Source of the DNA: Methylobacter sp.
GTDB lineage: Bacteria; Pseudomonadota; Gammaproteobacteria; Methylococcales; Methylomonadaceae
Direction: 5' to 3'
Length of the DNA: 48,946 bases
NCBI RefSeq assembly: GCF_004322395.1
Contig: NZ_SCTW01000045.1
Coordinates: 1-48,946 of the forward strand
Positions 37,343-45,899 of the stretch are shown piece by piece; position 1 is the first letter of the stretch, and each line of letters begins with the position of its first letter. Made by a program: the position numbers and the translations under genes. The notes under the pieces are model-generated. The model searched no databases and had not been told where the DNA came from. It was given only the letters and a program-made list of their open reading frames with translations.

Positions 37343-37906
37343 TCAACTGATTATTTCAGTCTGATAGCGAAGAATTCGAATATTTGGAGACCAGTAATCA
37401 GGCAATAACCCGGCTTTTCGCTTTAACTGCCTCAAAAACTGTTCCGGCTCCGGCAATGACTCCCATACCGACGGTAAAAACGTGCCGCGCCGATGCCCTT
37501 CTTCCAAAATCAAGCCGTCAATGCCGGGCTGCAATTGGGATAGTAAATCCTGTTCCGAACTAAACACTACCGGACTCGCGGGCGTGAGTATCGACAAATG
37601 CACATCCAAATCGTCGAACTCATAGGCTTCCAGCGGTGGAAACCTCGGATCTCTAAACGCTGCCGAATACGCATTCTCGGCAATATCGTGGGCAAGCGGT
37701 CTGATCGGCTCTAACATGCCGATACAACCGCGCAATTGCTGATTTATTTGTAAGGTAGTAAAGGTGGCACGCAATTCGGTCAATTCTGCCGGATAATCAT
37801 CCAAGTCGACTTTTATCGGCCGACCTGTTTGCAGTCCGTGCCAAATGGAGTCTTTCGCCAAAGTTATTAAGCGTTGCTGATTTATTTCATTCAATGACAT
37901 AAGCAC
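37343..37906 (-). CDS. amrA: AmmeMemoRadiSam system protein A (AMMECR1 domain)
   Basis: A 187-residue AMMECR1-domain protein. Features: FTTLQINQQLRGCIGMLEPI with the invariant LRGCIG, RDPRFPPL, and HLSILTP, GLILEEGHRRGTFLPSVWES near the end. AMMECR1 proteins are conserved from archaea to humans. In bacteria they are often encoded with a MEMO1-like protein and a radical SAM enzyme; the reaction is unknown. Its start overlaps the MEMO1 gene end by 20 nt, so the two are translationally coupled. Confidence 0.93.
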   Translation of the reverse strand: MLMSLNEINQQRLITLAKDSIWHGLQTGRPIKVDLDDYPAELTELRATFTTLQINQQLRGCIGMLEPIRPLAHDIAENAYSAAFRDPRFPPLEAYEFDDLDVHLSILTPASPVVFSSEQDLLSQLQPGIDGLILEEGHRRGTFLPSVWESLPEPEQFLRQLKRKAGLLPDYWSPNIRILRYQTEIIS

Positions 37907-38666
37907 CGTAACCTACCACACGGCTTTTATCGCCCGCCGTATCCCCGGAATTACGCAGATCGACAGTTTTAATTGATAACATTTTTTTCCTGGCCAATTT
38001 CAGCAACCCGCTGACCGGCACTTTACCGCAAGCCGACTCAAAGCCGAGCTGCTCATATTGCAGTTGTTCTATACTCTGGCTGGTCGCTTTATCCATCTGC
38101 TGAGCCGTTGCATAATCATGGTAATGGCTCAGGTCCGAGCTGATTACAACCAGTGTTTCATCGCCGCCCCATAGCGCCTCAAGCACTTGGCTGACTTGCT
38201 CCGGCGACGCTTCGCCTGCAACGATGGGTACGATTTTAAAGTTATCCAGCACTTCCTGTAAAAAAGGCAGATGCACTTCCAGACTATGCTCATAGGTATG
38301 AGCTTGCTCAATGTATTCGACAAAAGGCAGTTTCACTATAGCCTGCACTGCCGACTGATCTACCAGAACCTTACCCAAAGGCGTGGTGAATGTTTCTGAT
38401 CTGCTCACCGCCAAACCCCTGAAAGCAACCCGGTGCGAAGGACCGATCAGCACGACACGGGTTATTTTATCATGAGCATTTTTTAAGCTTGCATAAGCGC
38501 TTGCCGCGATCGGGCCGGAATAAATATAACCGGCATGAGGCACAATCATAGCTTTGGGGATTTTTTGATGGATTTCAGCAGCATTCAAAAACCGATCCAG
38601 CATCAGATGGAGCTGCTCTGGATTTGCAGGGTAAAAAGAACCTGCTACAGCGGGTTGTCTAGTCAT
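37887..38666 (-). CDS. amrB: AmmeMemoRadiSam system protein B (MEMO1 family)
   Basis: A 259-residue MEMO1-like protein, related in fold to extradiol dioxygenases. Conserved metal-site stretches are present: RQPAVAGSFYPANP at the start, MIVPHAGYIYSGP (His49 region), VLIGPSHRV, YEHSLEVHLPFLQ and VVISSDLSHYH. It is cotranscribed with the AMMECR1-domain gene and divergent from the radical SAM member. Confidence 0.94.
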   Translation of the reverse strand: MTRQPAVAGSFYPANPEQLHLMLDRFLNAAEIHQKIPKAMIVPHAGYIYSGPIAASAYASLKNAHDKITRVVLIGPSHRVAFRGLAVSRSETFTTPLGKVLVDQSAVQAIVKLPFVEYIEQAHTYEHSLEVHLPFLQEVLDNFKIVPIVAGEASPEQVSQVLEALWGGDETLVVISSDLSHYHDYATAQQMDKATSQSIEQLQYEQLGFESACGKVPVSGLLKLARKKMLSIKTVDLRNSGDTAGDKSRVVGYGAYVIE

Positions 38667-39046
38667 TTAGCATGTCCTGTTATTTAATCCGTACAACTGT
38701 ATGGAACAGAGCAACGGATTAGAGATAACTTCTGCGGGATAAGTCATTTTCGGAAAAACTCTGATGGCGGCTCTGATGTCTCAGACCGTAAGATAGTAAC
38801 ACTTAATTGTTACCGGGTTATTAATAAATCATTCTGGTACAAAACGCCTTTTTCAATGGCCCGAAATAATAGAGTCAACGCCATCCGATAGCCATACGTA
38901 TCATTACTTACATGTACGAAAATCATTTATTTTATTCTGTCGATAAGTCATGCTAGAAAATGAACATCTTAATCGCAATATCGATAATTTGCCCTGTTGT
39001 TGCATGAGCAAATCGGCGATTAATCAGTGAAATCGGGAGAATGATG
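38667..39046. other. Divergent control region of the AmmeMemoRadiSam genes
   Basis: These 380 nt separate the MEMO1-like gene (-) and the radical SAM gene (+). The inverted repeat GTAAC-N8-GTTAC at 38796-38813 could be an operator for a shared regulator. No gene or RNA is recognised. CGGGAG at 39034-39039 is the ribosome-binding site for the radical SAM gene. Confidence 0.35.
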
Positions 39047-40132
39047 ATGACTGAATTTATTAGCAAAGACACCGTAAAAACCCGCTACTGGCATGTCCTG
39101 AAAGACGGCCGCATACAATGCGACCTCTGCCCCAGGTTTTGTAAATTGCACACCGGCCAGCGCGGCCTGTGTTTTGTCAGGCAGAATCTGGACGATCAGA
39201 TCGTGATGACCAGTTACGGACGTTCCAGCGGCTTTGCGATTGACCCTATCGAAAAGAAACCGCTGAACCATTTTCTACCCGGCACTTCGGTATTTTCTTT
39301 CGGCACCGCCGGCTGCAACCTGGCCTGCAATTTTTGCCAGAACTGGGACATCAGCAAATCACGGGAAATGGACACCCTGATGAGCAAGGCATCGCCCGAT
39401 GCAATTGCACAGGCGGCACGAGATAACGGTTGCCACAGCGTCGCTTATACCTATAACGATCCGGTGGTTTTCCATGAATATGCGATCGATACCGCCCAAG
39501 CCTGCCGGGACCTGGGCATAAAATCGGTCGCGGTATCCGCAGGCTATGTTTGCGCGGAGCCTAGAGCCGAGTTTTATCAATATATGGATGCGGCCAATAT
39601 TGATTTAAAAGCCTTTACCGAGCATTTTTATTACAAAATTGCCGGCGGGCATCTGGATCCGGTATTGGAAACGATTAAATATATCAAACATGAAACATCG
39701 GTCTGGCTGGAGCTAACCACGCTGATCATTCCTGACGAGAACGATTCGGAAGCAGAGTTGGAAGCCATGACCCAATGGGTCATCGAGAATCTGGGGCCGG
39801 ATGTGCCGATGCACTTTACTGCGTTTCACCCGGACTGGAAAATGCGCAACAAGCCCTCCACTCCGCTTTCATCGTTATTGCTGGCCCGGCAGATCGCGTT
39901 AAAAAACGGGATACGTTATGCCTATGTCGGCAATGTGCATGACAAAGCCGAACAGAGCACCTATTGCCACAGTTGCAAGAAGCTGCTGATAGGCCGAGAT
40001 TGGTATGAATTGTCCGACTGGAATCTGGACGCGTCAGGGAATTGCCGCTTTTGCGGCGAACATTGTGCGGGGGTATTCGCTCCAAAACCGGGGAACTGGG
40101 GAGCTAAACGAAAAGCGGTTGCTATGGGATGA
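39047..40132 (+). CDS. amrS: AmmeMemoRadiSam system radical SAM enzyme
   Basis: A 361-residue radical SAM protein. The cluster motif is CNLACNFCQNW (Cys90, Cys94, Cys97). An N-terminal CDLCPRFC (Cys25, Cys28, Cys32) and C-terminal Cys pairs (CHSCKK, CRFCGEHC) suggest a zinc or second metal site. The family resembles pyruvate formate-lyase activators, and its substrate is unknown. Three ATGs occur in a row at 39041, 39044 and 39047; the last is best spaced (7 nt) from CGGGAG. All three AmmeMemoRadiSam parts are present here, split across a divergent promoter. Confidence 0.95.
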   Translation: MTEFISKDTVKTRYWHVLKDGRIQCDLCPRFCKLHTGQRGLCFVRQNLDDQIVMTSYGRSSGFAIDPIEKKPLNHFLPGTSVFSFGTAGCNLACNFCQNWDISKSREMDTLMSKASPDAIAQAARDNGCHSVAYTYNDPVVFHEYAIDTAQACRDLGIKSVAVSAGYVCAEPRAEFYQYMDAANIDLKAFTEHFYYKIAGGHLDPVLETIKYIKHETSVWLELTTLIIPDENDSEAELEAMTQWVIENLGPDVPMHFTAFHPDWKMRNKPSTPLSSLLLARQIALKNGIRYAYVGNVHDKAEQSTYCHSCKKLLIGRDWYELSDWNLDASGNCRFCGEHCAGVFAPKPGNWGAKRKAVAMG

Positions 40133-40538: not shown

Positions 40539-41705
40539 TCAATAAAGCGATTTGCTCCGCTCAGTCAAGCGAACCATATCATTCATCACGCCCTCCAAGC
40601 CGCCGTAAACATTCAGCGTATTGATCCGGCCGGTGATTTTTTCCAATATCTCCAGCTCTTTTAACCGCAACAACACGGGGTTGCCTTCCATGACTTTCGC
40701 GGTGTTATGCAAAGAGCGCGTGGCCTGGGTTTCTTCCTGACGCTTGATTAAATTCGCTTCGGCGAGTTTTTGCGCCTCAACCACTTGGGTCAATATCGCT
40801 TTCATTTCACCGGGCAAGACAATATCGCGCGCTCCGACGGTTTTTACTTCAATGCCATAAACGGCCGCTTTTTCAGAAACAATCGCTAACACCTGCGTGT
40901 TCAAGGAGTTTTTATCGGCCAACAACTCATCCAACGTTTGCGTGCTGACAACGGTTCGCAACGCCAATTGCAATTCGCGGTACAAATAATCCTTGGCATC
41001 GGCCAACTCGGCTTTAACCACTTCGGCTTGTTTAATCTGCCAGGTTGCCGACAAATTCACCCGTAAACTCACGCGGTCTTTAGTCAAAATTTCCTGGCCA
41101 TTGACTTCCATGTTTTGCAATCGGCCATCGAATAACGTCACGGCGATATTGCGATTAAACCTCCACCAAACATGCGTGCCCGACTTTAATGTCGCGACCG
41201 TTTCTCCGTCCACCGTCAAAAAACCCAGGTGATTTTCCGGCACTGTCGCTACGACTATCGCTCTCAAAGCGGCACACCGCAACATATCTTCTTTGGCATT
41301 CGCCAACAAGGCCGCCAATTTTTTGGGTACGGTAAAGTCCTGGCTGATGTCCAGCTTATCTACATGTATCTCTTGCTGAGTTTTCCAGTAAGCGCCGCGT
41401 TGTCCGGGAGCTTTTATGTCTTTTAGAACATTTTTTTGATAAACCAGACCGACTTCCTGCTCGCCTGTTTCCCATTGCGTCAGCACCTCGGCGAACGCAT
41501 CCGGATGTAATTGGGCCAAGTGCAGCAAGTCTTTGTCAATCTCTTCCTGTAAAGTATTGGTCAGGGTGACTATATGAACGTGGTATTGATCGAACCAATC
41601 CCAAAATCTATAGACACCGGCGGATAATATTTTTGAAAATTGCCGCTCTTTGAACAACAAACCTTTTTGCGTTTCCGCGATGATTATTTTTTTGATTAAA
41701 CGCAT
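40539..41705 (-). CDS. Slipin (SPFH/Band 7 family) protein of the rtc locus
   Basis: A 388-residue SPFH protein. The N-terminal region (IIIAETQKGLLFKERQFSKIL) is followed by a Band 7 domain (about 140-310: FTVPKKLAALL, LTKDRVSLRVNLSATWQI, YRELQLALRTVVSTQTLDEL, VKTVGARDIVLPGEMK) and a coiled-coil tail with EAQKLAEANLIKRQEE. There is no long N-terminal membrane helix. The ATG at 41705 has a perfect AAGGAGG 6 nt upstream. It lies in the same direction as rtcB, separated by 775 nt of structured RNA. SPFH proteins scaffold membrane assemblies; a link with RNA repair is suggested by the locus and not shown by sequence. Confidence 0.85.
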   Translation of the reverse strand: MRLIKKIIIAETQKGLLFKERQFSKILSAGVYRFWDWFDQYHVHIVTLTNTLQEEIDKDLLHLAQLHPDAFAEVLTQWETGEQEVGLVYQKNVLKDIKAPGQRGAYWKTQQEIHVDKLDISQDFTVPKKLAALLANAKEDMLRCAALRAIVVATVPENHLGFLTVDGETVATLKSGTHVWWRFNRNIAVTLFDGRLQNMEVNGQEILTKDRVSLRVNLSATWQIKQAEVVKAELADAKDYLYRELQLALRTVVSTQTLDELLADKNSLNTQVLAIVSEKAAVYGIEVKTVGARDIVLPGEMKAILTQVVEAQKLAEANLIKRQEETQATRSLHNTAKVMEGNPVLLRLKELEILEKITGRINTLNVYGGLEGVMNDMVRLTERSKSLY

Positions 41706-41730: not shown

Positions 41731-41933
41731 TAAAGCCTCCGCACAGCCACCGGCTCCAAGCTTTATGGCGAGCGGGCAAACCCACGCCAGCTGTTTGCGC
41801 ACCCGTCAGACCCGGCCCAAAGGCGTTGTCTGTGCTGATGTCCGGCGACCGTGACGTGACGACAGACCAACCGCATCTGCTACACGCAACCGCCGCCTTC
41901 AATCGGGAGGCCCTATCTGATGCCCTTTCGGGC
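41731..41933 (-). ncRNA. Structured RNA leader between the tRNA-like modules and slipin
   Basis: Four stems can be drawn by eye. GCCC-TTTC-GGGC is at 41922-41933. A stem of GTTGTCTGT (41825-41833) with ACAGAC-CAAC (41862-41871) has one bulge. GCAAAC (about 41776-41781) pairs with GTTTGC (about 41793-41798). The nested hairpin TAAAGC...AGCC/GGCT...GCTTTA spans 41731-41765. All stems are self-complementary on the minus strand, in the slipin 5' leader. No Rfam family is recognised. Whether it is one RNA or several is open. Confidence 0.5.
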
Positions 41934-41946
41934 TTTGCTTTTCAAG

Positions 41947-41963
41947 CTACCTTGGCAGGGTAG
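41947..41963 (-). ncRNA. Free-standing hairpin resembling a tRNA-Gly(GCC) anticodon arm
   Basis: On the minus strand this reads CTACC-CTGCCAA-GGTAG: exactly a 5-bp stem and a 7-nt loop. Loop positions match an anticodon loop (C32, U33, anticodon GCC, A37, A38). The arm of gammaproteobacterial tRNA-Gly(GCC) has a loop of TTGCCAA and a stem ending in ACC/GGT. It begins one nucleotide after the 3' end of the second tRNA-like module. Confidence 0.5.
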
Positions 41964-41964
41964 T

Positions 41965-42037
41965 TTCACTAGCCGGATTCGAACCGGCTACACACTGATT
42001 AATAGTCAGTTGCTCTACCAGATTGAGCTATAGTGAA
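41965..42037 (-). tRNA. tRNA-like RNA B, anticodon AUU (tRNA-Asn-like), no encoded CCA
   Basis: A full 73-nt cloverleaf. The acceptor TTCACTA/TAGTGAA is seven perfect pairs. TA lies at positions 8-9. The D-arm is GCTC/GAGC with a GG-containing loop, and the anticodon arm is ACTGA-CTATTAA-TCAGT (anticodon ATT at 42003-42001). A 5-nt variable loop and a T-arm GCCGG-TTCGAAT-CCGGC follow. The anticodon AUU (A34) is not used for bacterial Asn, which is read by GUU. No CCA is encoded (ACTA follows), unlike most gammaproteobacterial tRNA genes. It abuts the next module directly. It lies inside the rtcB-slipin unit on the same strand, which argues for an operon-specific mimic. Confidence 0.8.
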
Positions 42038-42108
42038 GCTGCCAGTTGGATTCGAACCAACGACCTACCGATAATCTCGGTTGCTCTACCGGGCTGAGCT
42101 ATGGCAGC
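42038..42108 (-). tRNA. tRNA-like RNA A with shortened anticodon loop, no discriminator or CCA
   Basis: A 71-nt cloverleaf. The acceptor GCTGCCA/TGGCAGC is seven perfect pairs. TA and the D-arm GCTC-AGCCCGGTA-GAGC follow. The anticodon arm is ACCGA-GATTA-TCGGT, leaving only a 5-nt loop (or a 4-bp stem with the 7-nt loop AGATTAT). The variable loop is 5 nt and the T-arm is GTTGG-TTCGAAT-CCAAC. The last acceptor base is followed immediately by the first base of tRNA-like B, so there is no separate discriminator or CCA. A U33 with a normal triplet is absent, so it probably cannot decode. The stems are too regular to be a decayed relic. Confidence 0.75.
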
Positions 42109-42244: not shown

Positions 42245-42300
42245 CGAATATATTTATCCTAAAAAATCAATTGGAACGTGTGGAAACCGTTCGTACTGAG

Positions 42301-42400
42301 CCCTCTCCAGCGGGAGAGGGTTGGGTGAGGGGAAATCAAAATCAAGGAAAAATGCTTGTTTTTATCCCCTCATCCCAACCTTCTCCCTGAGGGAGAAGGA
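42301..42400. repeat. About 100-bp imperfect palindromic repeat after rtcB
   Basis: CCCTCTCC...GGGAGAGGGTTGGGTGAGG on the left is inverted as CCCCTCATCCCAACC...TTCTCCCTGAGGGAGAAGG on the right. GAGAGGGTTGGGTGAGGG-type units are widespread intergenic repeats in proteobacteria. It lies 80 nt after the rtcB stop and could fold in the rtcB message. Confidence 0.65.
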
Positions 42401-42480
42401 GCTCGCAATCTTAAACCCTACCCCTTTCAATAGGCTCAGAGCGAACGGGATTTTAGTGTGCTCAACTGCATGTTTTGGAT

Positions 42481-43704
42481 TTATCCCTTAACACAAACCA
42501 CTTGTTTCAAGGTATGCACGATTTCAACCAAATCCGCCTGCGCCGCCATGACCGCATCAATAGGCTTGTAGGCCGAAGGCGTTTCATCAATCACCGCTTC
42601 ATCTTTACGGCATTCCACACCTGCCGTGGCTTGAATATGCTGGGCCAAAGACACCAGCTTTTTCGCTTGGGTGCGCGACATAACCCGCCCTGCACCGTGG
42701 CTGCAACTACAAAAACTTTCTTCGTTGCCCAAGCCGCGCACGATGAATGATTTGGCGCCCATGCTCCCAGGAATAATGCCCATCTCGCCCAGCTTGGCGC
42801 TGACCGCGCCTTTCCGGGTAACCAGCACGTTTTTATCGTAATGATGCTCGCGGCTGATATAGTTGTGATGGCAGTTCACCGCTTCCAGCTCAGCGCTAAA
42901 CGGTACCGGCAACACATCCCGCATTGCGCTTAACACGTTGTTCATCATGATTACCCGATTAGCCAGCGCAAAATCCTGCGCCCAGCCCACCGCTTCCAGA
43001 TAGTTTTTAAAATGCTCGCTGCCTTCGGGAATGTAGGCCAAATCTTTATCGGGCAGATGGATAAACCAGCGTTCCATATCTTTTTTAGCCAGCTCGATAA
43101 AATGCGTACCGATCCGGTTGCCGACACCGCGCGAACCGCTATGCAGCATCACCCACACCGCATCTGCCTCATCCAGGCAAATCTCGATAAAATGGTTGCC
43201 TGTTCCCAAGGTACCCAAGTGATTCAGGTTGTTGGTGTTTTTCAAGCATGGGTGTTTTTCGCACAAGCGTTGAAAACCCTCGCTTAGCGGCAGCCATGCC
43301 TGCACAACGTCTTCAGGCGCTTGCCCCCAGCTCCCGGTATCGCGTCCTTTAAAATTGGCAACGCGGCCATGCGGCACCCGTTTTTCAATCTCGCTTCGTA
43401 ACGCGGTCAACGAATCGGGCAAATGCGCGGCGGTTAAGCTGGTTTTAGTCGCCATCATGCCGCAGCCTAAATCCACGCCAACGGCAGCAGGAATCACCGC
43501 GCCGACGGTAGGAATGACGCTGCCGATCGTCGCGCCTTTACCCAAATGGACATCGGGCATTACCGCGATCCATTTGTGAATAAACGGCAGCCCGGCGATA
43601 TTCAGCAATTGTTGCCTGGAGTTTTCATCAAAGCTTACGCCGCGTGTCCATGCCTTAATAGGATGTTGGCCTTGTTGGTGTAAGACTTCGTAGGAACTAG
43701 TCAT
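42481..43704 (-). CDS. rtcB: RNA-splicing ligase RtcB
   Basis: A 407-residue protein (E. coli 408) that joins 2',3'-cyclic phosphate or 3'-phosphate RNA ends to 5'-OH ends, using GTP and Mn2+. The guanylylated histidine is His336 (SHGAGRVMSR). Metal ligands are in VDLGCGMMA (Cys), GTGNHFIE and SGSRGVGNR. The C-terminal basic motif is KPIDAVMAAQADLVEIV. The ATG at 43704 (MTSSYEV) is preferred, with AAGGAA about 8 nt upstream; the frame runs open to 43755 through the MITE border. No rtcA is present. It is the first gene of a minus-strand unit ending in slipin, facing the divergent rtcR. Confidence 0.97.
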   Translation of the reverse strand: MTSSYEVLHQQGQHPIKAWTRGVSFDENSRQQLLNIAGLPFIHKWIAVMPDVHLGKGATIGSVIPTVGAVIPAAVGVDLGCGMMATKTSLTAAHLPDSLTALRSEIEKRVPHGRVANFKGRDTGSWGQAPEDVVQAWLPLSEGFQRLCEKHPCLKNTNNLNHLGTLGTGNHFIEICLDEADAVWVMLHSGSRGVGNRIGTHFIELAKKDMERWFIHLPDKDLAYIPEGSEHFKNYLEAVGWAQDFALANRVIMMNNVLSAMRDVLPVPFSAELEAVNCHHNYISREHHYDKNVLVTRKGAVSAKLGEMGIIPGSMGAKSFIVRGLGNEESFCSCSHGAGRVMSRTQAKKLVSLAQHIQATAGVECRKDEAVIDETPSAYKPIDAVMAAQADLVEIVHTLKQVVCVKG

Positions 43705-43730: not shown

Positions 43731-44137
43731 TAACTGATGTTACGCAGTTAGCCAAAGGAGTCGCTAGTGCGACAGTTATTTGAATCGGGGTCTCGCCCCC
43801 GAGGGCGAGTTACTTTCTTTTGCTCCGCCAAAAGAAAGTAACCAAAGAAAAGGCGGCCCGGTTGCCGCTTGCTTCCTGCGTTCCTCGCTTTCACCGGGGG
43901 TTGCCAGAAGGGCCATCCCTGGCCCTCTGGCAACGCGCTGCATCCATGCAGCGCCCCTACGGGCTGTTCCCGCCGAAAGCTCCGGTACTCGGCGCGGCAT
44001 ACGGGATTCAATCCGTGCTATTGTCACTAACCTTCCGCTCGTTCCCACGCGCTGCGCCACAAGTTGAGCTCATCCTTGCTCTACATCCAGGCAGTGCAAC
44101 AAACAGGATAAAAACTATCTGTCCGTAACATCAGTTA
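43731..44137. mobile_element. MITE-like element (about 410 bp) between the sigma-54 promoter and rtcB
   Basis: Ends are the inverted repeats TAACTGATGTTACG (43731-43744) and CGTAACATCAGTTA (44124-44137). ACTAAC occurs on both outer edges (43729-43734 and 44137-44142), a possible target duplication. The interior has strong palindromes (ACTTTCTTTTG...CAAAAGAAAGT; GGTTGCCAGAAGGGCC...GGCCCTCTGGCAAC; CTGCATCCATGCAG) and no transposase. A related copy, with the interior in the opposite orientation, begins at 48761. Frames across it are repeat-derived. Confidence 0.75.
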
Positions 44138-44153
44138 CTAACGATTTGTTTAC

Positions 44154-44170
44154 AGCAAGGCCTGTGCCAA
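44154..44170 (-). promoter_or_regulatory. Sigma-54 promoter directed toward rtcB
   Basis: On the minus strand: TTGGCAC-AGGCC-TTGCT, a full match to the -24/-12 consensus (TGGCAC-N5-TTGC). Transcription would start near 44142, at the edge of the MITE, giving a leader of about 440 nt before rtcB. A sigma-54 site facing rtcB is expected, since RtcR is a sigma-54 activator. Confidence 0.88.
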
Positions 44171-44306: not shown

Positions 44307-45899
44307 ATGGATACAGTCATCATCGGCATTTTAGGATCTCGCCTGGATCACGGCGGTTTGGGTAGCAGACGGCACGAACGCTGGCGGCCCAGCATCTCGC
44401 TATTGATGCACGACAACTTGCCCGTCGATGAGTTTGTGTTGATTTATCACCGCGAAGAACAACAGCTCGCCACGTTGACGCTCGACGACATGGCGGCCCT
44501 GTCTCCGCAAATACGGCTGACGTCGTATCAAGTCGATTACGAAAACCCTTGGGACTTTGAACAGGTTTACAGCCAGCTGCACGAATTCACCCGCAGCTAT
44601 CCTTTCGATCCCGAGCAGCATGATTATTATGTCCACATCACGACCGGCACTCATGTCGCGCAAATCTGCTTGTATCTGTTGACCGAAGCCAACTACATTC
44701 CGGCCAAGTTGCTGCAAACCTCGCCAAGCAAAGAAGGCGTACAAGGTTGTTATCAAGTCATCGATCTGGATTTATCGCGTTACGATCAAATCGCCTCGCG
44801 CTTTGCCCGTGAAGCCCAAGACGGCATCGCTTATTTAAAAGGCGGTATAGCGACTCACAATCCTGCATTTAATAATCTGATTTCCCAACTGGAACATGTA
44901 TCGATCAAATCGTCGGCACCGATGTTATTAACCGGCCCGACAGGCGCGGGAAAATCGCGCTTGGCAAAACGCATTTACGAGCTGAAAAAACAGCGCGGCC
45001 TGGTAACGGGGAAATTGGTTGAAGTCAATTGCGCGATCCTGCGCGGCGATAACGCGATGTCGGCTTTATTCGGCCATGTGCGAGGCGCTTATACCGGCGC
45101 GATGAATCAGCGCATGGGCTTATTGCGCGAAGCCGATAAAGGCTTGCTGTTTTTAGACGAAATCGGCGAATTGGGTCTGGACGAGCAAGCCATGCTGTTG
45201 CGCGCCATTGAAGATAAAGTGTTTATGCCGTTGGGCAGTGACCGGGAAGTCGGTAGCGATTTTCAATTGATAGCCGGGACTAACCGCGACTTGTTTGAGC
45301 AAGTACAGCAGGGGCAGTTTCGTGAAGATTTATTGGCTCGGATTAATTTATGGACTTATCAACTACCCTCGCTAAAGCAGCGCATCGAAGATTTAGAACC
45401 TAATATTGAACACGAGCTGCAACAATTCACCACTAAGGCAGGCTATAAAGTCAGTTTTAACAAAGCCGCACGCGAGCAATATTTAAAATTTGCGCGTTCA
45501 GCGCAGGCGCTATGGAGAGCGAATTTTCGGGATTTAAATTCCAGCATTACCCGCATGGCAACCTTGGCAACCGGCGGGCGCATTACCGAAGAACTGGTGA
45601 GCGAAGAAATCGGCCGCTTGCAGTACGCATGGTCCGGTTTCGGGCAACAATCGCCGGTTGACGATGGACTTGCCGGCGTATTGTCGGCGCAAGCCTTGGC
45701 AGAGCTGGATTTATTCGGCCGCTTGCAACTTGCCGAAGTAGTGCGCGTATGCCGTGCCAGCCGCAGCTTAGCCGAAGCGGGACGGGTTTTGTTCAATCAT
45801 AGCCGCACCCAAAAAGCCAGCGCCAACGACTCGCACCGGCTTAAGCAATATTTGCAGAAGTTTGGCTTGGAGTTTCAGGCTATTGTAAAAAGTTCGTAA
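44307..45899 (+). CDS. rtcR: Sigma-54-dependent transcriptional activator RtcR
   Basis: A 530-residue regulator (E. coli 532). The N-terminal CARF-like sensor (about 1-180; VIIGILGSRLDHGG, ERWRPSISLL, HDYYVHITTGTHVAQI) is followed by a sigma-54 AAA+ domain. That domain has Walker A GPTGAGKS (210-217), the sigma-54 contact loop GAYTGA (260-265, a variant of GAFTGA), Walker B LFLDE (Asp284, Glu285) and REDLLARINLW. A helical DNA-binding C-terminus follows (about 470-530). In Salmonella, RtcR is reported to respond to tRNA fragments ending in 2',3'-cyclic phosphate. It is divergent from rtcB across the sigma-54 promoter. Confidence 0.96.
   Translation: MDTVIIGILGSRLDHGGLGSRRHERWRPSISLLMHDNLPVDEFVLIYHREEQQLATLTLDDMAALSPQIRLTSYQVDYENPWDFEQVYSQLHEFTRSYPFDPEQHDYYVHITTGTHVAQICLYLLTEANYIPAKLLQTSPSKEGVQGCYQVIDLDLSRYDQIASRFAREAQDGIAYLKGGIATHNPAFNNLISQLEHVSIKSSAPMLLTGPTGAGKSRLAKRIYELKKQRGLVTGKLVEVNCAILRGDNAMSALFGHVRGAYTGAMNQRMGLLREADKGLLFLDEIGELGLDEQAMLLRAIEDKVFMPLGSDREVGSDFQLIAGTNRDLFEQVQQGQFREDLLARINLWTYQLPSLKQRIEDLEPNIEHELQQFTTKAGYKVSFNKAAREQYLKFARSAQALWRANFRDLNSSITRMATLATGGRITEELVSEEIGRLQYAWSGFGQQSPVDDGLAGVLSAQALAELDLFGRLQLAEVVRVCRASRSLAEAGRVLFNHSRTQKASANDSHRLKQYLQKFGLEFQAIVKSS

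Follow-up and report, generated by a model that had tools for sequence, protein, structure and literature searches.

Why should an RNA-repair operon contain a pair of tRNA-like genes? The question is raised by contig NZ_SCTW01000045.1 of Methylobacter sp. (Gammaproteobacteria; Methylomonadaceae; RefSeq assembly GCF_004322395.1), whose 48,946 nucleotides (nt) were analysed as one stretch, hereafter the window. Two cloverleaves lie there between rtcB, which encodes an RNA ligase, and the gene for a slipin, an SPFH protein, all on the minus strand, with rtcR divergent from them. An initial annotation had taken the cloverleaves for maintained tRNA mimics of the operon and not for housekeeping tRNAs, a reading that is partly supported by the sequence comparisons presented here. 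We give nearly even odds to the following reading: in RtcR-controlled RNA-repair operons the rtc-type slipin gene is accompanied by a non-coding tRNA-mimic RNA of its own, which has the two cloverleaves as its core and acts in trans through its tRNA elbow, without decoding.

Cloverleaves kept beside the slipin gene

ARAGORN finds two tRNA-like genes in the window, at 41963-42037 and 42037-42108, both on the minus strand. We call the upstream one module 1 (42038..42108) and the slipin-proximal one module 2 (41963..42037); they abut, the first base of module 2 being the base that follows the 3' acceptor strand of module 1. When the whole genome was searched with the tRNA model RF00005, module 2 scored 67.4 bits and module 1 scored 57.3 bits, both above the cut-off. 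The Infernal scan of the window against Rfam (cmscan) reported module 2 only, as a tRNA with the same 67.4 bits, and did not list module 1. Our model R1 gave 65.5 bits for module 1 and 90.3 bits for module 2, which was itself among the sequences used to build R1. The folding energy of both modules beats that of 200 out of 200 dinucleotide shuffles (z of -3.3 and -3.2). ARAGORN, the genome search and the fold therefore agree on the two complete, unspaced cloverleaves that were first proposed, and both modules have the D-arm and T-arm elbow that is a feature of elongator tRNAs.

Module 2 has the loop CUAUUAA and thus the AUU anticodon originally ascribed to it, whereas the 5-nt loop ascribed to module 1 is only one of two readings. 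The shortened anticodon arm of module 1 may be a stem of 5 base pairs (bp) with a 5-nt loop, the minimum-free-energy form, or a 4-bp stem with a 7-nt loop, the ARAGORN form, in which G replaces U33 and the assigned anticodon is again AUU. The annotated lack of an encoded CCA after either module was confirmed, and 35 of the 36 other tRNAs that we read from the same genome do end in CCA; this list comes from the RF00005 search and may be incomplete, because one further tRNA-like place turned up in the genome. The AUU anticodon is indeed unlike that of ordinary tRNA-Asn, which the genome also has, as tRNA-Asn(GUU) with CCA. The host tRNAs nearest to the modules are only 71-75% identical to them.

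Relatives of the locus came from a scan of named genome contigs, in which the best 80 of 464 relatives were kept, so that the counts lean towards window-like slipins; 78 of the 80 loci had at least 260 bp of upstream DNA. In 74 of these 78 the rtc-type slipin gene is preceded by a homologous module, which ends 244-1169 nt (median 353) before it. Since rtcB varies in position (upstream of the module in 43 of the 78 loci, downstream in six and outside the locus DNA examined in 27), the module tracks the slipin more closely than rtcB. Within a family sample of 101 genomes, our own included, 13 have a long match to the window slipin; ARAGORN finds upstream cloverleaves at 12 of these loci, and the thirteenth, L008, was found by model R1. 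At L008:2980-3260 unrelated sequence stands in place of module 1 and module 2 is kept; the neighbouring relative L007 is intact. A class-wide sample yielded 21 slipin carriers among 369 genomes, and the module was present in 18 of the 20 that remain when our own genome is left out. At least six of these 20 loci are probably the same genomes as among the 80, and L002-L013 and the Methylococcales loci from L031 onward also overlap between sets. By comparison, none of 16 loci of other slipins of the family had a tRNA. Four of nine matches in a plasmid collection were examined; by ARAGORN, Photobacterium has two modules in tandem and Burkholderia a single one, lying some 100-200 nt (by eye) after a sigma-54-like site. 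Loci L066 and L161 have three tandem modules rather than two, and in L012, L013 and L141 module 1 looks, by eye, cut down to a minihelix-like form. By sequence comparison, the cloverleaf is shown to be kept across Gammaproteobacteria and some Betaproteobacteria, beside the slipin gene even where rtcB is elsewhere.

Constraint on the modules was read from an alignment (A2) of 65 slipin-proximal modules, made from the 70 nearest module calls minus L070, L074, L057, L060, L061 and L109, which were odd, duplicate, of module-1 type or had a long variable arm, plus the window. Two further alignments also leave out particular loci: A1 was made without L004 (internal stop) and L008, and A4, with 39 loci and the window, without L047 and L054. 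Standard pairs fill 94.3% of the base-pair cells of A2, and in 17 of the 21 pairs both partners change; the covariation score reaches 0.597, versus 0.197 in shuffles and at most 0.14 in slid controls. As aligned, 38 of 64 modules have a broken outermost acceptor pair. A further T-arm lies between module and slipin gene in 41 of 74 loci, as against one on the opposite strand. The initial claim that the modules are maintained and not decayed thus stands, as homologous loci keep the cloverleaves and the stems covary. By their sequences the modules are neither chance nor decay, and their acceptor, D-arm and T-arm are shown to be kept by selection while the codon-reading bases are not.

A variable anticodon loop

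Sixteen different anticodons occur among the 53 modules with a 7-nt loop, and 12 of the 65 aligned modules have anticodon loops of 4-6 nt. The anticodon arm of the Burkholderia module is capped by GAAA (by eye), and the module of L152 would read UAA. Position 34 is nearly random, at 1.96 of 2 bits when weighted over 37 clusters, and the commonest loop, CUCAUAA (11 of 53), is also the loop of two host Met tRNAs. When 58 pairs of modules with bodies at least 85% identical were compared, the anticodon columns were identical in 14, and mismatch was 0.55 for the anticodon, as compared with 0.07 for the acceptor stem and 0.06 for the T-stem. The 66 body columns are identical in the modules of three Microbulbifer loci (L080, L090 and L098), whose loops differ.

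How fast the loop changes can be set against the four-fold sites of the slipin and rtcB genes. Over four divergence bins, loop divergence is 0.24, 0.65, 0.57 and 0.43 versus 0.20, 0.42, 0.55 and 0.67 at the four-fold sites, and the module body diverges by 0.05-0.12 over the same bins. In the bin that exceeds the four-fold rate (0.65 vs 0.42), 21 of 48 differences come from three Microbulbifer pairs, with gaps counted as differences. The loop appears to change at a roughly neutral rate between close relatives and to be partly held between distant ones, and neutral drift would explain most of the change because loop divergence is so close to synonymous divergence. We do not claim positive selection on the loop, as three of the four bins are close to or below the four-fold rate. 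We also reject an antisense or kissing-loop role: after loops had been exchanged between loci, complementarity was at least as high in 139 of 200 swaps for the leader and in 61 of 200 for the slipin start, so module-2 loops show no excess complementarity to the leader or slipin start of their own locus.

CCA is encoded in just 6 of 64 slipin-proximal modules, and 7 of 23 module-1 calls have a loop without an assignable anticodon. Because CCA is so rarely encoded beside the slipin gene, and because the anticodon changes at about the synonymous rate on a fixed body, the modules appear very unlikely to be ordinary tRNAs.

Operon context and possible roles

The features of an RtcR-controlled RNA-repair operon that the window contains are rtcB, a divergent rtcR and a sigma-54 element. 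The ligase gene (42481..43704, minus strand; start codon picked by eye) matches PF01139 with an E-value of 3e-130. On the plus strand, rtcR (44307..45899) encodes a sigma-54 activator with a CARF-type RtcR domain (PF06956, E 4e-73; Sigma54_activat; NCBIfam NF038308 RtcR above cut-off). A candidate -24/-12 promoter element, TGGCAC-N5-TTGC (44155..44169, minus strand), faces rtcB and is the sole exact match in the window. One-mismatch matches are no commoner than chance (4 vs 5.3 expected), so it is position and exactness that carry weight; in the rtcR-rtcB gaps of relatives a relaxed form of the element was found in 23 of 35 and the exact form in 11 of 35. The slipin gene (40539..41705, minus strand) is assigned by its band-7 domain (PF01145) and by structure models. 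The rtcB-slipin RNA-repair context originally described was therefore recovered.

Two minus-strand hairpins were read from the sequence between the modules and the slipin gene. One, CTACCCTGCCAAGGTAG (41947..41963), stands immediately 3' of module 2, and a similar one follows the module in relatives (by eye); the other, GCCCGAAAGGGC (41922..41933), has similar counterparts in many Methylococcales and Thiothrix loci (by eye). A palindromic interspersed repeat (42296-42405; 29 matching places in the genome, itself included) lies between rtcB and the modules, and a dispersed repeat (43790-44070; 50 places including itself, several at contig ends) lies between the sigma-54 element and rtcB and makes the rtcB leader longer. 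No rtcA was seen by eye among window open reading frames of at least 90 amino acids, nor in L001, the remaining genome not having been searched; it is present in the locus DNA of 23 of 93 loci searched. The genome holds a second RtcB gene (C53:20088-21383). A cluster resembling an AMMECR1, Memo and radical-SAM trio (37343-40132; judged by eye from translations) adjoins the operon. PADLOC assigned no defence family to the slipin or RtcB; RtcR is listed.

Some relatives carry much more than the modules. Nine loci (L072, L077, L078, L084, L087, L092, L096, L107 and L110) have 88 further tRNAs on the operon strand, 3-19 each, of which 77 encode CCA and 81 have a 7-nt loop with U33; in L078 the array lies downstream of the slipin gene. 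This count leaves out L060, L063, L083, L099 and L109, with one or few extra tRNAs, and L160, which has an array. The arrays come on top of many other tRNAs, since the genomes of five array loci hold 42-58 tRNA matches each. We infer that the array tRNAs, unlike the window modules, are genuine replacement tRNAs, and arrays of mostly CCA-bearing tRNAs suggest that bacteria couple the repair of tRNAs with their replacement. In 14 of 93 loci, all nine array loci among them, there is an HNH endonuclease gene related to L110:3755-4318; in 11 of the 14 it lies up to about 1.3 kb before the slipin gene. A 320-amino-acid protein encoded at L072:6201-7163 has no Pfam match at E 0.001 and, counted together with its relatives, occurs in 6 of 93 loci.

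How might the module RNA work? Going by gene order and the promoter element, RtcR would sense cleaved tRNAs and fire the sigma-54 promoter, and tRNA-processing enzymes may then cut the module RNA out of the transcript. The freed RNA would act in trans: a partner that binds tRNAs would find in it the elbow and acceptor of a tRNA, and no codons would be decoded. The partner is most likely the slipin, on which the RNA may assemble or by which it may be caged; alternatively, a tRNA-degrading or -processing enzyme may be occupied by the RNA. The module RNA would then be the counterpart, in slipin-type operons, of the YrlA RNA in Rsr-type operons. We favour a tRNA mimic that works with the slipin or occupies a tRNA-handling enzyme because the features kept are those that elbow and acceptor partners read, and because the slipin is the constant neighbour.

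Several observations weigh against this proposal. No module is found in L054 and L069, each with 5 kb of upstream DNA, or in L108, and L049, which is counted among the four loci without a module, has only one there, cut by the contig end. Loci L153 and L159 of the class sample also lack it. None of five other same-genus genomes has a long slipin match, which makes the system a patchy one, even within the genus, since same-genus L014 retains just a 48-residue slipin piece (88% identical), perhaps a lost copy, in a 3.1-kb locus that has no tRNA. Neither ARAGORN nor R1 finds a cloverleaf in the Escherichia and Citrobacter loci of the plasmid collection; the two leaders examined keep a T-arm motif behind a sigma-54-like site (by eye), but this enteric motif is recognised by its sequence, and the fold predicted for it does not clearly form a T-arm. 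U33, U36, A37 and A38 are favoured, if not universal, and an elbow-only function does not need them. Upstream modules encode CCA in 13 of 23 relatives, so some could be charged. Finally, the adjacency of module and slipin could be a matter of gene order and not of partnership.

Three side observations concern the enteric loci. In Citrobacter the locus runs from rtcR through the leader and the slipin gene to that of a protein with an RlaP RNA-repair domain. In the E. coli record rtcR is not listed beside the slipin, the gene table of that record being incomplete. The E. coli leader with the T-arm motif before the slipin (L139:5640-5995) is a 356-base stretch that matches 1624 of 5426 complete E. 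coli genomes; the match concerns the leader stretch alone, and nothing is annotated beneath it among the 8 matches listed.

If the loop and not the elbow were the working part, the modules could be decoys or baits for anticodon nucleases, a reading that we consider rather doubtful. Induced on tRNA cleavage, they would absorb the nuclease, or be cut into 5' fragments that keep RtcR on, with RtcB resealing them and the loop tracking the nucleases. A fast-changing loop on a fixed body is what such a decoy would show, and most clusters retain the U-turn and U36-A37-A38 features of genuine anticodon loops, with position 34 free; the commonest loop equals that of two Met tRNAs, and the CARF domain of RtcR binds tRNA fragments, a finding cited in the available text of PMC9650030. 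However, loop divergence is near, not clearly above, synonymous divergence, and the GAAA cap, the 4-6-nt loops and the module-1 calls without an anticodon all speak against it. In the passages available, moreover, YrlA itself is uncut by nuclease (PMC7790460), and the fragments bind the isolated CARF domain, not full-length RtcR, with no activation of transcription in vitro (PMC9650030). An anticodon-directed role, as put forward in the initial annotation, consequently fails as a general explanation, the loop being the least conserved part of the module; a decoy under rapid target change retains some probability because U33, U36, A37 and A38 stay favoured. A neutral loop is, by contrast, just what is expected if the cloverleaves are processing punctuation, cut by RNase P and RNase Z so as to separate the rtcB and slipin mRNAs and set their ratio, with no later role for the RNA and a drifting anticodon arm. 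The kept acceptor and T-arm, the minihelix-like module 1 of L012, L013 and L141, the abutting cloverleaves within a polycistronic leader and the reading of the elbow by RNase P and RNase Z (PMC4810234, in the text available) all suit this explanation, which we nevertheless hold to be improbable if worth keeping in mind. It leaves unexplained the favoured U33, U36, A37 and A38, the additional T-arms and the loci with three successive modules, and the short distance from the sigma-54-like site to the modules of Photobacterium and Burkholderia leaves no room for an upstream gene.

The arrays described above would be expected if the operon supplied spare tRNAs for translation when the normal ones are cut, and in Anabaena the repressor TrcR controls rtcB, slipin and HNH genes together with a 26-tRNA array, all of them responsive to translational stress (PMC10272220, in the part available). 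This explanation fits the arrays and not the window modules, with their unconserved anticodon, A34 anticodons, non-canonical loops, mostly broken first acceptor pair and, beside the slipin, mostly absent CCA, and for the modules we find it very improbable. Least credible of all, to the point of near dismissal, is the idea that the modules are functionless relics, left by a tRNA array since lost or by a site where a mobile element integrated. Tandem tRNAs and arrays in relatives and the interspersed repeats that flank the site would suit relics, but the strong covariation makes them unlikely, and so does the presence of the module beside the slipin in 74 of 78 loci. A bolder form of the tRNA-mimic proposal, which we regard as speculative and probably wrong, is that slipin and RNA form a bacterial vault-like or Ro-like ribonucleoprotein, whose construction RtcR switches on when tRNAs are damaged and in which cut tRNAs are held, sorted or shielded for RtcB; the elbow would be the address and the loop the variable part. 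The slipin, which looks soluble, is predicted to have three tandem SPFH1-like beta repeats, an SPFH core and a long helix, in models with a mean pLDDT (predicted local distance difference test) of 77, or 88 for residues 1-200, and no membrane anchor is evident by eye; the repeat match is weak, and the vault-like layout of repeats, SPFH shoulder and helix is a predicted one. The slipin frame of Thiothrix caldifontis (L047:5001-5600) shows an in-frame stop.

Comparison with known systems

A tRNA-like RNA in RNA-repair operons is already known in the form of YrlA. Tandem cloverleaves tied to a slipin, with a free anticodon and sometimes accompanied by arrays, appear to be new as far as the listings and passages available from the open literature show: no report of tRNA-like genes beside rtcB-slipin was found in these, and 'slipin' and 'RtcB' occur together in PMC10272220 and PMC9938897 only. 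A slipin, PaFlo8, has been noted in the P. aeruginosa rtc locus, in an article whose main text, so far as available, has no word beginning 'tRNA' (PMC13086221).

The tRNAs and RtcB of jumbo phages resemble the present system in that tRNAs are supplied with an RNA ligase against tRNA cleavage (PMC7824862, in the part available). They are, however, phage-borne, and we reject a phage origin for the locus, as the window slipin is unmatched at E 1e-20 in 50,697 phage records. The tRNA-Other of Bacillus cereus is likewise a pseudo-tRNA outside translation and within a larger RNA, but it is a single, iron-responsive case, and its abstract names no rtc operon (PMC3399842). In Anabaena an extra tRNA array, rtcB, slipin and HNH genes stand under one stress control, as in the array loci; there, however, the genes are at separate loci and held by TrcR, whose repression is released by translational stress, the trn operon is an isoacceptor array, and the passages available describe no mimic in a slipin leader (PMC10272220).

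The closest known systems also include the vault particle, with its major vault protein and vault RNA, and above all YrlA and Rsr. In the Salmonella rsr-yrlBA-rtcBA operon a non-coding RNA with a tRNA-like domain is likewise part of an RtcR-regulated rtcB operon; the role of YrlA in RNA repair is left unaddressed by Hughes et al. 2020, who, in the passages available, list possibilities (PMC7790460). The modules are not members of the YrlA family (RF02553): the junction between them scores 33.3 bits, far under the 69-bit gathering cut-off, and this is not a specific similarity, since comparable scores are reached by ordinary tandem tRNAs of the host (36.2, 31.2 and 26.8 bits). They also differ from YrlA in being whole tandem cloverleaves with a slipin as neighbour and, as the initial annotation had noted for the Rsr/Ro partner, in the lack of a TROVE gene, no PF05731 match being found in the assembly of 157 contigs. 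The modules would represent a second tRNA-mimic family in the RNA-repair pathway, one with another protein as its neighbour. Their constraint map is clear, the elbow being fixed and the wobble base free, and yields testable predictions; they point to what may be an overlooked helper RNA of bacterial RNA repair. Were the ribonucleoprotein idea to prove true, slipin and tRNA mimic would be the counterpart of Rsr and YrlA, and a bacterial model for SPFH cages that pair with small tRNA-like RNAs.
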